In this document: piece after piece, positions 2,058-44,392 of the stretch
Layout: each line of letters opens with the position of its first letter
How positions within the stretch are numbered: position 1 is the stretch's first letter
Assembly (NCBI GenBank): GCA_011523635.1
Contig: WTGI01000054.1
Coordinates: 1-48,906, forward strand
DNA from: Acidimicrobiia bacterium
GTDB taxonomy: Bacteria; Actinomycetota; Acidimicrobiia; Spongiisociales; Spongiisociaceae
Reading direction: 5' to 3'
DNA: 48,906 nucleotides
Translations under genes and position numbers: made by a program
The notes under the pieces: model-generated
Database searches by the model: none
Told to the model about the DNA's origin: nothing
Seen by the model: only the letters and a program-made list of their open reading frames with translations

Positions 2058-3200
2058 CTAACGAGGAGGGGATTGTAGTTCTGGGGCCGCCGATATGGTT
2101 GGTAGTAGTAGTCCTGCCAACAGTTCCTCGGCCCTGCTGGTGCTGAACGGGGTCGGGCGGTCGCCAACTCTGTTTCCTAGCTGGTCGAGCAGCCAGAACT
2201 GGGACCAGGATCTGATCCCGTAATGCCTTGTCACCCATGGGTAGCGGTCCCGTAGGTTGGTGAAGGTGATCCCGAAGTGTGCCATGAAGGCCCTGACGTC
2301 TGTGGCGGTGCCCACACCGTTGATGCCTATTACGTTGACCCGGTGGCTGTTCTGTCGAGCGAACTGCTCGATAGCCGGCGCGTCCGCCGAGCAGGTCGGT
2401 CAGTAGGGCGACCAGAACCACAGGAGTAGGGCTTTGTCGCCGGTCACGAATGAGCGGAGGTTCACCGACACCCCGGATGACACGTCGACCAAGTTCATAT
2501 CGGGTACGTCGTCGCTGATCACGATGGAATCGGCCTCGACTGTTTGTTCATTCTGGCGGAGTAGGGCCCGGTGGAGGAAGGTGGCCATCTGGGCCCGGGT
2601 AACCGGATCGTCGGGGCAGTAGCGGAGCGGGTCAGTCCCGCATCCGACGGTGAGCCCCGCCGCGGCGAGGGCATCAATGTTGGTCCGGTGGGCGTCGTTG
2701 CCCTCGGTATCGGTGAATCCCGCCGGCGGGGCGCTGTCGAGACCGAATGCTCGAAAGAGGAAGGTGGCCATCTGGGCCCGGGTTACCGGATCGTCGGGGC
2801 AGTAGCGGAGCGGGCCCGTCTCACATCCGACGCTGATGTTGCGGTCGGCTAGTTCCTCCGCGTAGGGCGACCACCATTCCGTGGCTTCCACGTCGGCGAA
2901 CCGAGACGTTCCCGGCGCTTTGACCTCATGGCCAAGGACCCGGATCAGCCACACCGCCATCACCCACCGGTTGACCGGCTGGTCAGGACAAAAGAGACCG
3001 TCCCCGCATTCGGTGCCCGTGAACACGCCCAGATCAGCCAAGGCCTCGATGGCAGCTCCGTGTGTACCTCCCACCCTCACATCAGAGAACACAGACCCCT
3101 GGGCGGGAGCCGGCATGACTGCTGTTGCGAGAAGCACTACGACAGCAAGCGCAACAAGCCCCACCCGCCGACCCCGTCCCCGCTGTTGGCTGCCGAACAC
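2058..3200 (-). CDS. Secreted SLH-repeat/TlpA-like redoxin, candidate selenoprotein (in-frame TGA)
   Basis: Read through the TGA at 2400-2402 (residue 267), the frame gives 380 residues. They comprise a signal peptide (about 1-34, ending PAPAQG), three SLH-type repeats (about 38-90, 100-150 and 160-215; the last two carry RYCPDDPVTRAQMATFL), then a thioredoxin-fold domain of the TlpA/AhpC-TSA type (about 235-370). The active site reads W-S-P-Y-[TGA]-P-T-C, so the TGA sits where TlpA-like proteins have their first redox cysteine. Beyond it the frame stays open for 113 codons with redoxin-like sequence (VNVIGINGV, GITFTNLRDRYPWVTRHYGI), ending at TAG 2058-2060. The upstream frame is open to 3380. 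GTG 3200 was chosen because it leaves a normal signal peptide, although its ribosome site is weak. The likely role is a cell-surface or periplasmic thiol/selenol redox protein. The alternative is a nonsense-mutated pseudogene. Confidence 0.75.
2364..2394 (-). promoter_or_regulatory. Candidate bacterial SECIS hairpin
   Basis: On the minus strand, just after the TGA, a perfect 7-bp stem CTGCTCG/CGAGCAG (2388-2394 with 2364-2370) encloses an inner GGCG/CGCC stem (2385-2388 with 2377-2380; base 2388 is shared, so the two stems are alternatives at that base). The 4-nt loop GACG begins with G. About 15 nt separate the TGA from the apical loop, at the short edge of the spacing usually described for bacterial SECIS elements, which also need a G in the first two loop positions. 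SelB binding is inferred, not shown. Confidence 0.55.
2575..2631 (-). repeat. 57-bp repeat inside the SLH region, copy 1
   Basis: Identical to 2758-2814 except for one base. The two copies are 183 bp (61 codons) apart and encode the PDDPVTRAQMATFL part of SLH repeats 3 and 2. The near-perfect nucleotide identity points to recent duplication or gene conversion between repeats. Confidence 0.85.
2758..2814 (-). repeat. 57-bp repeat inside the SLH region, copy 2
   Basis: The partner of 2575-2631, with one mismatch in 57 bp. It encodes the end of the second SLH repeat. Confidence 0.85.
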
Positions 3201-5087: not shown

Positions 5088-6269
5088 TTATGGCGCAGAA
5101 GCAGGAGCCTGGCTGTGGAGGTAGTTGGCCCAGTCCTCCATGAGTTGGCGGCGCCGGTCGAAGAGGTCGCTTCGTTGGTAGGCGGCTTCGACCCGGTCGT
5201 TGTTGATGTGGGCGAGGGCGAGTTCGCAGATCTCGCGTGGGGTGTCGGTTAGTTCGGCTGCCCAGTCCCGGAAGCTGGATCGGTAGCCGTGGGGTACTGC
5301 GGGGATGTTGTGTTCCCGCAGCAGTTTGGGCAGGGTCGCGTCGGACAACTCCCTTCCGGTGGCCGAGGGGAACACCAGCCCACTTTGGTCCCGGTAGCGC
5401 TGCGCTTCTGTCAACAGTTCGACAGCGCGGGTGGGGAGGGGCACGCGGTGTTGGCGGGCGGTTTTCATCCGGGATGGCGGGATCGTCCACGTCGCTTCGT
5501 CCAAGTCCACCTCGTCCCATCGGGCGCCCCGTACTTCGCCTGAGCGGCAAGCAGTGAGGACTAGGAACTCGAACGCCAGGATCGTGGTCGGATGTGCCCC
5601 AGAGGCTCGCACGGTGGCGACACTCGCCGCCACAGCCCCATGTGGCAACGCCCGGTGGTGTTGGCGCCGTCCCATGTTGGAGGGAAGCGCGGCGGTGATA
5701 GCGTCCCCGGCCGGGTTGTCTGTCCGGTATCCGTGCGCGATGGCCCAACGCATCACCGCGCCGACGCGCTGCCGTACCCGCCTCGCGGTTTCGGGGCGGG
5801 TGTGCCAGATCGGCAACAGACAAGCCATCACATCCGCGGTGGTGATCCGATCCACCCCCCGGCGTCCCAGACGCGGATACGCATAAGTAGTGAGCGACGA
5901 CCTCCACTGTGCTTCTGACTTGCCGCCCCGTTTCCAACCGGCGGCGTGGATAGCGATCACCTCCTCGGTGGCGTCCGCGAAGGTGGGTACACGGCTGCCT
6001 CTGGGGTCGAGGCCCGCTTCGATCACCCGCCGGTTCGCGACGGCCTTTTGGCGGGCTTCGGCCAAAGACACGATCGGGTAGGCGCCTAGGCCGATGTTGG
6101 TGACCCGCCCATGGAAACGGACCCGCTGGCTCCACGTCTTGGATAGGCGCCCGTTCGCGGTTGGTTTCACCAAAAGGCTGAGCCCGTAGCCGCCGCGTCC
6201 GTCGCCGTAACGGCCCGGTTGGGTGACGGTACGCACGAACGCGGCTGATAAGATCCGTGGACGCTTCAC
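5088..6269 (-). CDS. P4-type tyrosine recombinase/integrase
   Basis: A 393-residue site-specific recombinase. The N-terminus has the DUF4102-type arm-binding domain (PGRYGDGRGGYGLSLLV, then GLGAYPIVSLAEARQKA), followed by a SAM-like core-binding domain and the catalytic domain. Visible catalytic positions are Arg in ACRSGEVRGARW, His-x-x-Arg in PHGYRSSFRDW, the second His in LALAHI and the Tyr nucleophile in AAYQRSDLF. The GTG at 6269 follows GAGGGG at good spacing; the frame is open to 6365. The gene looks intact. P4-type integrases usually target tRNA 3' ends, but no tRNA fragment is evident beside the gene. With the AlpA-like gene it suggests that 1-6.5 kb derives from an integrative element. 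Confidence 0.92.
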   Translation of the reverse strand: MKRPRILSAAFVRTVTQPGRYGDGRGGYGLSLLVKPTANGRLSKTWSQRVRFHGRVTNIGLGAYPIVSLAEARQKAVANRRVIEAGLDPRGSRVPTFADATEEVIAIHAAGWKRGGKSEAQWRSSLTTYAYPRLGRRGVDRITTADVMACLLPIWHTRPETARRVRQRVGAVMRWAIAHGYRTDNPAGDAITAALPSNMGRRQHHRALPHGAVAASVATVRASGAHPTTILAFEFLVLTACRSGEVRGARWDEVDLDEATWTIPPSRMKTARQHRVPLPTRAVELLTEAQRYRDQSGLVFPSATGRELSDATLPKLLREHNIPAVPHGYRSSFRDWAAELTDTPREICELALAHINNDRVEAAYQRSDLFDRRRQLMEDWANYLHSQAPASAP

Positions 6270-6289
6270 CCGCCTGATCCCCTCATTTT

Positions 6290-6311
6290 GGTTATCACCT
6301 GTGGTTATCAC
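6290..6311. promoter_or_regulatory. Two GGTTATCAC direct repeats upstream of the integrase
   Basis: GGTTATCAC occurs at 6290-6298 and 6303-6311, 13 bp apart, just upstream of the integrase start. The position fits an operator or integrase/excisionase arm site; this is inferred from spacing only. The rest of 6312-6666, the divergent intergenic region up to the oxidoreductase, holds nothing else I recognise. Confidence 0.4.
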
Positions 6312-6666
6312 TTTACCGGTGGGATTAGACGATACCTCCCTGGAACCACAAGAAGCAACAAACACCCCACAACCAGGCTATTCACAACACCAACGGAATG
6401 GTAAGAAACCATACGAGACCAACAAACGGCGGTCACTCCCTCCGCCTATGGCCGCATATTTCCCCAGCTGAGTAGCCTTCCAAACTCGGTCATTACCTTC
6501 CGTGTCACTTCGTGCCGGTGGTGTGATTAGGGCAATCGTCGGTAACGGGACTCCTCGCTGGACAGCCTTGGCCGCGGGTGCCGGCAAACGTCCCCCTTTG
6601 CCGACTTGGCCGTCGATACGGTCTGGCCCGGAGCCATATCTTGTCCGGTTGATCGAGGAGCACAAC

Positions 6667-41264: not shown

Positions 41265-42620
41265 ATGCCCGACCTGCGCCGCCTTCCCTCGGTTGGTGCG
41301 CTGGCGCATGATCTGGTCGCCCGGGTCGAGGACGGCCTGCCGGTGGCCCTGGCTACCGAGATCGCCCGGCGCAGCATCGAAGAAGCCCGCGCCAGCGCCC
41401 TGGAAGGCCGCTCCGTCGACCCGGCGGTGACCGCCCTTCGCGAAGCCGCGCGCCTGTCCAGGACCCGTCTGCGACGGGTCATCAACGCCACCGGTGTGAT
41501 CCTCCATACCAATCTGGGTCGAGCCCCGCTCCATCCGTCCGCGGCCGGGGAGGCCCGCGGGGCGGCCACCGGCTACGGCAACCTCGAGTTCGACCTGGAC
41601 GGGGGGCGCCGCGGTTCACGGGCTGCCTACCTGTCCCGGCTTATGGCCCATCTGACCGGCGCCGAGGCTGCGCTGGTGGTGAACAACAACGCCGCCGCCC
41701 TGTTCCTGGTTCTCAACACGCTGGCGGCGGGCCGCTCGGTGCCGGTCTCTCGGGGCGAGTTGATCGAGATCGGAGGCTCCTGCCGGCTGCCCCGGCTGAT
41801 GGCGGCCTCGGGAGCGCACCTGGTGGAGGTCGGCACCACCAACCGGACCCGTATCGCCGACTACGAGGAGGCGGCCGGCGACGGGGCCGCCATGCTGCTC
41901 AAGGTCCATCCGTCCAACTACCGGGTGGTGGGGTTCGCTGAGGAGGCCACCATCGCGCAGTTGGTCGGCCTGGGTAGGGGCCTCGGCCTGCCGGTGGTCT
42001 ACGACGTGGGGAGCGGGCTCCTGGATGCCGAGGTTCCATGGCTGCCAGGGCCGCCTCCCGCCTGGATCGGCGACGAGCCGGGAGTGAGGCAGGTCCTCGC
42101 CGATGGCGCCGACCTGGTGACCTTCTCGGGCGACAAGCTGTTCGGGGGATGCCAGGCGGGGATCATCGCGGGTCGGGCCGATCTGGTGGCCGGACTCAAG
42201 GCCCACCCCGTGGCCAGGGCGGTACGGGTGGACGGCTCCGCCATCGCCGCGCTGACCCGCACCGCCGAGTTATACGCCGAGGGGAGGGGAAGCGAGGTCC
42301 CGTTCTGGGAGATGGCCGGCCGTTCCGTTACGACCCTGACCGAGCGCCTCGAGCGCCTCGCCGCCCTCGCGGAGGTAGCCGCCGATGTGCGGATGTCGGA
42401 GGCGGTGCCGGGCGCCGGGTCGGTTCCCGGCATGGCCGTTCCCTCGCCGGTGCTGGTGCTGGAAGGCCGGGGCGAGGATCTCTGGCCGGCCCTGGTCGGA
42501 TCGGATCCGCCCGTGGTGGCCCGCCGGGCGGCCGGTGACCTTCTCATCGACCTGAGGGCCGTCGGCACGGACGACGACGCCACCGTCGCGGCCGCTCTGC
42601 GGGCTCTATGCCGGTCGTAG
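41265..42620 (+). CDS. selA: Selenocysteine synthase (L-seryl-tRNA(Sec) selenium transferase)
   Basis: 451 residues. It converts seryl-tRNA(Sec) to selenocysteyl-tRNA(Sec) using selenophosphate and pyridoxal phosphate. The family layout is complete: the N-terminal domain, RVINATGVILHTNLGRAPL, the substrate region EIGGSCRLPRLM and EVGTTNRTRIADYE, and the PLP-Lys motif TFSGDKLFGGCQAGII. No truncation. It overlaps selB by 13 bases, so the two form an operon. Its presence makes UGA decoding as selenocysteine likely in this organism. Confidence 0.96.
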   Translation: MPDLRRLPSVGALAHDLVARVEDGLPVALATEIARRSIEEARASALEGRSVDPAVTALREAARLSRTRLRRVINATGVILHTNLGRAPLHPSAAGEARGAATGYGNLEFDLDGGRRGSRAAYLSRLMAHLTGAEAALVVNNNAAALFLVLNTLAAGRSVPVSRGELIEIGGSCRLPRLMAASGAHLVEVGTTNRTRIADYEEAAGDGAAMLLKVHPSNYRVVGFAEEATIAQLVGLGRGLGLPVVYDVGSGLLDAEVPWLPGPPPAWIGDEPGVRQVLADGADLVTFSGDKLFGGCQAGIIAGRADLVAGLKAHPVARAVRVDGSAIAALTRTAELYAEGRGSEVPFWEMAGRSVTTLTERLERLAALAEVAADVRMSEAVPGAGSVPGMAVPSPVLVLEGRGEDLWPALVGSDPPVVARRAAGDLLIDLRAVGTDDDATVAAALRALCRS

Positions 42621-44392
42621 GTACCGGCGGTCACGTCGATCACGGCAAGTCCACCCTCGTCCAGGCCCTGACCGGACGCGATCCGGATCGCTGGCGCGAG
42701 GAGAAGGAGCGGGGGCTCACCATCGACCTCGGGTTCGCCTGGGCGAGGATCGGCGGCCTGGAGGTCTCCTTCGTGGATGTTCCGGGCCACGAGCGGTTCA
42801 TGAAGAACATGCTCGCGGGCAGCGGGGGATTCGATGTGGCGCTGCTGGTGGTGGCCGCCGATGAGGGATGGATGCCCCAATCGGAGGAGCACCTGGCCGT
42901 CCTCGACCTGCTCGACATCCGCCACGGGCTGGTCGCGCTGACCAAGACCGATCGGGCCGACGCCGATCTGATCGAGCTGGCCACGCTGGAGGTGGAGGAG
43001 CGGCTGTCGGGCACCTCCCTGGAGGGTTGCCCCATCGTCGGCGTGTCGGCGGTGACCGGGGACGGCCTGGACGATCTCCGGACCGCGCTGGCCGAGACGA
43101 TCGCATCGATGCCCGCCCACCGCAGCGACCGCACCCGGCTGTGGATCGACCGGGTGTTCCCGATGGCGGGTGCCGGAACGGTGGTGACCGGCACCCTCGT
43201 CGGCGGATCCATCGCGGTGGGCGACGAGGTGGAAGTCCTCCCCGGCGCCGTCACGGGAAGGGTGCGCTCCCTTCAGGCTCACGAGGCGGAGCGGGACCGG
43301 GTCGGAGCCGGGACCCGGACCGCGGCCGGAGTGGCCGGGCTCGACCGGAGGAGGGTGGCGCGGGGGTGGATGCTGGGGCGGCCCGGCGAGTGGGTGCCGA
43401 GCGATCGGTTCCTGGTGACACTCCGCACCGCCCGATACGTGGACCATCCCCTGTCGAGGCGGGGGGCCTACCAGATGCACCTGGGTAGCGGGGCCTGGCC
43501 GGTGCGCCTTTTCTCGGTGGGCGAAGTCGATGACCGGACCGTGGGCGTGCTCCGTACCGAACAGCCGGTGCCGGTCCGGATGGGTGACCGCTTCGTGCTG
43601 CGCGACGTGGGAAGGCGCCTGATCGTGGCCGGAGGGCAGATCGTGGAGCCGGTGGCGCCGCGCAAGGGACGCGACGCCCGTCTCGCCGCCGCCGCGCTCC
43701 AACCCGTCCTCGGGCTGGAGCCCGACCGGCAGGCCGGCGCGTTGCTCGGATGGCGGGGCGCCGAAAGCCCCGCGGTGCTGGCCGCCCATTCGGGAGGAGG
43801 CAGGCCCGATAGGGGGGTGGTGGCGGGCCGGTCGCTGCTGAGCGAGGACCATGCCGGCCGGCTGGCCCGGCGAGCCGGGACCATCGTGGCCCGGTTCCAC
43901 GAGGACAATCCCCTGCGTCCGGGGATGCCCAAGGCGAGCCTGGCCAGCGCGCTGGGGGTCGACATCGACACTCTCGCCGCCGTGCTGCCGTTCGACGGCC
44001 GGCTCGTCCAGCGGAAGTCCGTGGTGGTGCTGGCGGGATTCCTGCCCGAACTGGGTCGGTCCGAGGAGGAGGAGTGGGAGCGGATCCGTACCGATCTCGA
44101 ATCGGCGGGCCCGATGGTGCCCAGGCTGAAGGAGATGGCGGTCGATCCCGAGCTCCTGCACGCCCTCCTCAGGGAGGGGCGCCTGGTCAGGATCTCCGAG
44201 GAGCTGGTCTACCTGCCCGGCCAGGCGGACGAGCTGGTCGCTCGGCTGGCTGACCTTCCCGACCGCTTCACGGTGGCGCAGTTCCGGGACGCCACCGGGC
44301 TGACCCGCAAGTACGCGGTGCCGTTCCTTGAGTGGGCCGACCGGCGCGACATAACCACCCGCTACGGCAACGAGCGTTCCGTCAACCGCTAG
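42608..44392 (+). CDS. selB: Selenocysteine-specific elongation factor
   Basis: 594 residues. It is the GTPase that brings Sec-tRNA(Sec) to UGA codons marked by a SECIS. The EF-Tu-like part has GTGGHVDHGKSTLVQALTG, ERGLTIDLGFAW, VDVPGHERFMKNMLAG and TKTDRAD, then beta-barrel domains (AGTVVTGTLVGGSIAVGDEV). The C-terminal third (about 380-594) is made of winged helices that bind the SECIS; it ends with FTVAQFRDATGLTRKYAVPF. All parts are present. The start lies inside selA. Confidence 0.96.
   Translation: MPVVGTGGHVDHGKSTLVQALTGRDPDRWREEKERGLTIDLGFAWARIGGLEVSFVDVPGHERFMKNMLAGSGGFDVALLVVAADEGWMPQSEEHLAVLDLLDIRHGLVALTKTDRADADLIELATLEVEERLSGTSLEGCPIVGVSAVTGDGLDDLRTALAETIASMPAHRSDRTRLWIDRVFPMAGAGTVVTGTLVGGSIAVGDEVEVLPGAVTGRVRSLQAHEAERDRVGAGTRTAAGVAGLDRRRVARGWMLGRPGEWVPSDRFLVTLRTARYVDHPLSRRGAYQMHLGSGAWPVRLFSVGEVDDRTVGVLRTEQPVPVRMGDRFVLRDVGRRLIVAGGQIVEPVAPRKGRDARLAAAALQPVLGLEPDRQAGALLGWRGAESPAVLAAHSGGGRPDRGVVAGRSLLSEDHAGRLARRAGTIVARFHEDNPLRPGMPKASLASALGVDIDTLAAVLPFDGRLVQRKSVVVLAGFLPELGRSEEEEWERIRTDLESAGPMVPRLKEMAVDPELLHALLREGRLVRISEELVYLPGQADELVARLADLPDRFTVAQFRDATGLTRKYAVPFLEWADRRDITTRYGNERSVNR

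Follow-up and report, generated by a model that had tools for sequence, protein, structure and literature searches.

Selenoproteins that carry a U-x-x-C motif in a redoxin domain are already known as a kind. A UxxC redoxin selenoprotein (PF08534) appears in a 2026 catalogue beside other UxxC thioredoxin-like families (PMC13188914), which bears out the remark in the initial annotation of our locus that thioredoxin-like selenoproteins of this type had been described. The redoxin entry cites the marine metagenome work of Zhang and Gladyshev 2008 (PMC13188914, PMC2398784), and probably corresponds to the "Prx-like 3" of that paper (PMC2398784). The same catalogue gives a bSECIS consensus: an apical loop of 3-9 nt with a G in its first two positions, a stem of 4-16 bp, a spacing of 16-37 nt and an energy of -7.5 kcal/mol or lower (PMC13188914). 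Here we analyze a candidate selenoredoxin gene from a member of the Acidimicrobiia. The window, a term we use for the whole stretch of 48,906 nucleotides analysed, holds both this gene and part of the selenocysteine (Sec) machinery.

A redoxin frame interrupted by TGA

On the minus strand, a frame that is open from 3380 down to a TAG at 2060-2058 has a lone interruption, the TGA at 2402-2400, around which the translation reads ...LLLWFWSPY-U-PTC-SADAPAIEQFARQN... (Table 1). The initial annotation had placed an in-frame TGA at the first redox-Cys position of a redoxin, and this frame bears it out. The annotation had also counted 113 redoxin-like codons past the TGA: 113 sense codons do precede the TAG, but the redoxin domain covers only ~100 of them. 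Its description of the domain as TlpA-like stands, the domain being nearer to TlpA, DsbF and ResA than to an AhpC-type peroxiredoxin. Three SLH repeats in the same protein had escaped it. The Pfam Redoxin match (PF08534) spans the TGA with 45 bits against a gathering cut-off of 26.6, and the SLH match (PF00395, three repeats) reaches 52 bits against 20.8. The GTG at 3200 is the likely start, chosen from the signal-peptide-like N-terminus, while the frame itself is open to 3380. An integrase-like gene lies near the selenoredoxin gene, on the minus strand at 5088-6365.

Table 1. Features of the selenoredoxin locus and of the Sec machinery in the window.
Feature	Position	Strand	Remarks
Selenoprotein gene	2058..3200	-	380 codons + TAG; Sec267, Cys270
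Predicted N-terminal signal peptide	3096..3200	-	FGSQQRGRGRRVGLVALAVVVLLATAVMPAPAQG; judged by eye
Three SLH repeats, residues 36-213	2562..3095	-	Pfam SLH 6.9e-14, 3 stretches; cell-wall attachment predicted
Redoxin (thioredoxin-fold) domain, residues 228-368	2097..2519	-	Pfam Redoxin 1.2e-11
Sec (UGA) codon	2400..2402	-	residue 267; opens the redox motif U-P-T-C
TGC, second redox Cys (Cys270)	2391..2393	-	invariant in homologues
Hairpin 1	2374..2392	-	fold conserved, sequence variable; candidate SECIS spacer
Hairpin 2, UCGAGC-AGUUC-GCUCGA	2355..2371	-	loop 34 nt past UGA; candidate SelB-binding SECIS part
selA, L-seryl-tRNA(Sec) selenium transferase	41265..42620	+	TIGR00474, 429 bits, cut-off 268
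selB, Sec-specific elongation factor	42608..44392	+	overlaps selA end; TIGR00475, 318 bits, cut-off 242

We dropped open-frame length as evidence for recoding, since 7 of the 45 long TGA-ending frames in the window (67% GC) stay open for at least 113 codons after the TGA. The observation nevertheless exceeds chance, because Pfam content continues across the join, the homologous column holds TGA, TGC or TGT only, and the downstream hairpins go beyond a synonymous null (see below).

In the AlphaFold model the redoxin domain has a pLDDT mostly of 93-98, the SLH part being poorer, and Sec267 stands immediately before helix 268-283, which gives a thioredoxin fold with the active-site pair where helix 1 begins. 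The top fold match in the PDB is DsbF of M. tuberculosis (3ios; Z 19.4, rmsd 1.8, 132 aligned), followed by MPT53/DsbE of the same species (1lu4; Z 18.5, rmsd 2.1, 130 aligned) and then by ResA and CcmG; a sequence profile concurs with DsbF and MPT53 as the best matches, and the SLH structures 3pyw and 6bt4 are also among the fold matches. None of the curated NCBIfam DsbE, DsbF and ResA subfamilies reached its cut-off, the best ResA model scoring 42.4 bits against 170. Of 57 aligned sequences, 39, including all 16 Cys versions, have Pro at the column expected to hold the cis-Pro, and 17, all of them Sec forms, have Ser. The window protein is one of these (Ser333, 2202-2204, minus strand). Because Ser333 replaces the cis-Pro, we liken the protein to DsbE, DsbF and ResA and do not file it among them. 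Our best guess, by analogy with DsbF or ResA, is a fast thiol/disulfide exchange protein. A crude motif census of the Sec versions found 55 with a lipobox, 11 with SLH repeats and 19 with a signal or membrane stretch, and because such forms dominate, the family most likely acts outside the membrane. From their family membership, the SLH repeats would bind the secondary cell-wall polymer.

Conservation of the UGA codon and the Sec machinery

Two further redoxin paralogues in the organism's own genome (3.15 Mb, 97% complete) have TGA at the identical column. One is a second SLH-redoxin (FWAEWUPTCR), and the other resembles a lipoprotein and has a Thr-rich linker (FWSPFUETCR). The genome also encodes, at loci L008-L014, many more SLH-repeat proteins that share the SLH part of the window protein, several of them with large frames (500-950 codons). 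When the class was searched with a profile built from the three redoxin domains, 112 of its 395 genomes gave a match. We extracted 111 unique homologous domains from fetched loci and found at the Sec column TGA in 90, TGC in 15, TGT in 6 and no other codon; these loci were the strongest matches plus 20 picked mostly for lacking TGA, and the proportions are not frequencies. The second Cys codon was always TGC or TGT in the 111 domains. This is the pattern of Cys or conserved TGA that the initial annotation had proposed to look for, and the random stops or frameshifts that it named as counter-evidence did not turn up. Homologue frames are intact and end mostly ~98-104 codons past the Sec column, except for one that has TGA at the column and a TAG 12 codons on; this copy is probably broken or misassembled.

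Among named records, the TGA form comes mostly from metagenome-assembled genomes of Acidimicrobiia, and two Kribbella loci have the Cys form. At nine loci Sec redoxin genes stand next to one another in pairs, several of which combine a lipoprotein form with an SLH form. No conserved gene neighbour of the redoxin was informative, those that are shared reflecting close relatedness, SLH repeats or antisense frames.

Compared with its orthologue L041, from another genus, the window gene has a dN/dS of 0.27 past the TGA and 0.31 in the 130 codons before it; by this measure purifying selection acts downstream of the TGA. These data bear on a rival reading, in which a decaying gene has acquired a true stop here, or shows a sequencing error, and its downstream part is a relic. 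The gene does have an integrase nearby and few other genes around it, and openness past a TGA is common at the GC content of the window. Against decay, two paralogues and many genomes share the TGA at this column, the part after it is under purifying selection, and the hairpins described below are selected at synonymous sites. A sequencing error in particular is very unlikely, because independent TGA copies exist in the genome's two further paralogues and in many other genomes. The homologue data thus already refute decay, to which we assign almost no probability.

The machinery needed to decode UGA as Sec is complete in the genome. The selA and selB genes that had been recognized in the window were confirmed by scores above the TIGR00474 and TIGR00475 cut-offs, and selC and selD, whose absence from the genome would have spoken against a selenoprotein, were both found. 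The anticodon of selC is UCA, and selD (C90:35467-36396) is interrupted by a single TGA, at the catalytic position of its product. The genome also has an fdhA with a UGA (C47:2501-4354). Of 40 genomes with a TGA redoxin, 37 had a SelB score exceeding the curated cut-off, against 5 of 23 for which the redoxin matches listed were Cys forms (Fisher p 1e-8, indicative only, since the genomes are related). One genome (96% complete, ~160 contigs) has a TGA copy and no SelB match.

UGA might instead be read through as an amino acid other than Sec, by a general recoding or at a leaky stop. We find this barely credible, since Cys codons alone substitute for the TGA, the genome has the complete Sec machinery, the Sec version follows the presence of SelB, and SECIS-like hairpins are confined to TGA versions; furthermore, many members of the family end in TGA, so UGA is still a stop. 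Judged from the sequence comparisons, the TGA at 2400-2402 is almost certainly read as selenocysteine, presumably recoded by the organism's own SelA, SelB, SelC and SelD. The initial claim of a genuine selenoprotein is thus strongly supported, by the TGA/Cys-only column, the paralogues, dN/dS, the Sec machinery and the hairpins. The product would be a secreted thioredoxin-fold selenoprotein attached to the cell wall by its SLH repeats, in which the Sec267-x-x-Cys270 pair, likely by homology, performs thiol/disulfide exchange outside the membrane; the substrate and direction of the exchange we infer.

RNA hairpins downstream of the UGA

We compared RNA folding past the UGA with a null of random synonymous recoding that preserves each protein and its codon usage, with the U of UGA taken as nt 0. 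Two hairpins exceed this null in Sec genes. Hairpin 1 lies at about nt 10-30 in the family, with a sequence and register that differ between genes, and has a mean fold energy of -11.1 kcal/mol against -5.9 (sd 0.3) in the null. Hairpin 2 (nt 31-47) forms 5.74 of its 6 pairs on average, against 3.76 (sd 0.11), and all six are formed in 85% of Sec genes, compared with 2% of the null and 0% of Cys genes. The excess persists when one sequence per 80% identity cluster is kept. Of 88 sequences, 68 have AGUUC or AGUUU as the loop of hairpin 2, and 80 use GCT for the Ala codon that falls in its stem, against a background of ~11% GCT among Ala codons. Compensatory changes occur in 3 of the 6 pairs (13 cells), a level reached in 0 of 500 shuffles. 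In the 21 Cys versions neither hairpin is in excess over the synonymous null. The hairpin-2 signal is not family-wide, because a group of divergent TGA redoxins (L153, L090 and L091) lacks hairpin 2; their SECIS must differ from the hairpin-2 type.

For the window sequence the fold of lowest energy has both hairpins, with competitors (pair probabilities ~0.4-0.66). A single long stem with the UGA at its base appeared among the folds of the window and L041 and was rejected, being lost elsewhere in the family, as in genes with UET in place of UPT. RNAalifold over all Sec sequences recovered hairpin 2 alone, because the register of hairpin 1 shifts between genes, and no SECIS family of Rfam matched at gathering or permissive thresholds. 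Hairpin 2 falls within the bSECIS limits, having an AGUUC loop, 6 bp, a spacing of 34 nt and -8.0 kcal/mol. Its position, the G-U of its loop and its confinement to Sec versions suggest that it binds SelB.

The two-hairpin layout recurs, at nearly matching positions, in selD: 28 Sec-selD genes, almost all of them from the class, have hairpin 1 at nt 10-28 and hairpin 2 at nt 29-45. All six pairs of hairpin 2 are formed in 93% of these (n=28), and its loop is mostly GGUUC, GGUCC or GGUCU. The element is absent from 21 Cys-selD genes. Sec-selD is widespread in the phylum, and several selD genes of sister classes have the layout while others are without it. The fdhA genes of the class have a single hairpin at nt 15-31, with a GGUCU loop 18 nt past the UGA in 25 of 25; with the loop near the UGA, a spacer hairpin like hairpin 1 was not seen.

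We propose a two-hairpin SECIS in the mRNA, in which hairpin 2 (loop AGUUC) would be the SelB-binding element and hairpin 1 would take up the 20 nt in between, bringing the effective distance of hairpin 2 to the UGA to about that of the single fdhA hairpin. This division of labour, spacer for hairpin 1 and SelB binding for hairpin 2, is the least secure part of our reading, because the two-hairpin fold of the window shares its ensemble with alternatives, and we see the case for and against it as about balanced. Recoding could also be real with an ordinary single-hairpin SECIS, hairpin 1 or 2 alone, the other being kept for something else such as ribosome slowing. That hairpin 2 by itself fits the published model (PMC13188914) makes this a serious contender, if a somewhat less than even one, but hairpin 1 beats a null preserving protein and codon usage in two unrelated genes, is missing from Cys versions, and has no counterpart in fdhA, where the SelB-type loop is near the UGA. 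A bipartite SECIS might operate in several mRNAs of Acidimicrobiia and some sister classes, with a SelB-type hairpin ~35 nt from the UGA drawn near by a conserved spacer hairpin and the distance fixed by the fold, not by nucleotide count. It would serve lineage-expanded surface selenoredoxins, some of them anchored to the wall by SLH repeats and some without the usual cis-Pro. We hold this wider proposal to be equally likely true or false.

Comparison with described systems

That two unrelated genes have a double hairpin while fdhA of these genomes has a single one makes it possible to test what fixes, in bacteria, the distance allowed from the UGA to the hairpin that binds SelB, and why many bacterial SECIS elements look unlike that of E. 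coli. Many genomes of the class carry UxxC redoxin selenoproteins, some of them two to four copies, and a standard gene caller would split such frames at the UGA.

The catalogued UxxC redoxin (PMC13188914) and the window protein share the Pfam family PF08534, one Sec, the U-x-x-C motif and extensive Cys homologues. An SLH fusion is unlisted there, a difference drawn from the description of the entry (representative HEU0032618.1), and the window protein adds a wall-anchored architecture to this kind. The catalogue's account of the UxxC redoxin has no mention of actinobacteria or of a two-hairpin SECIS, and in the open-access literature we found no SLH-fused form, no Acidimicrobiia member of this family and no conserved two-hairpin SECIS. 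DsbF (3ios) and MPT53/DsbE (1lu4) of M. tuberculosis, secreted actinobacterial thiol-disulfide oxidoreductases, resemble the window protein in fold and sequence, but they have Cys where it has Sec, and their solved domains are without SLH repeats.

Within the same genome, Sec-SelD is likewise encoded by a TGA gene, depends on the same Sec machinery and has the two-hairpin layout of the redoxin. FdhA also comes from a TGA gene and the same machinery, but with one hairpin, whose GGUCU loop stands at 18 nt. Compared with the bSECIS consensus (PMC13188914, Fig. 2A), hairpin 2 agrees in loop, stem, G position, spacing and energy; what the redoxin and selD genes add to it is a conserved hairpin between the UGA and hairpin 2.
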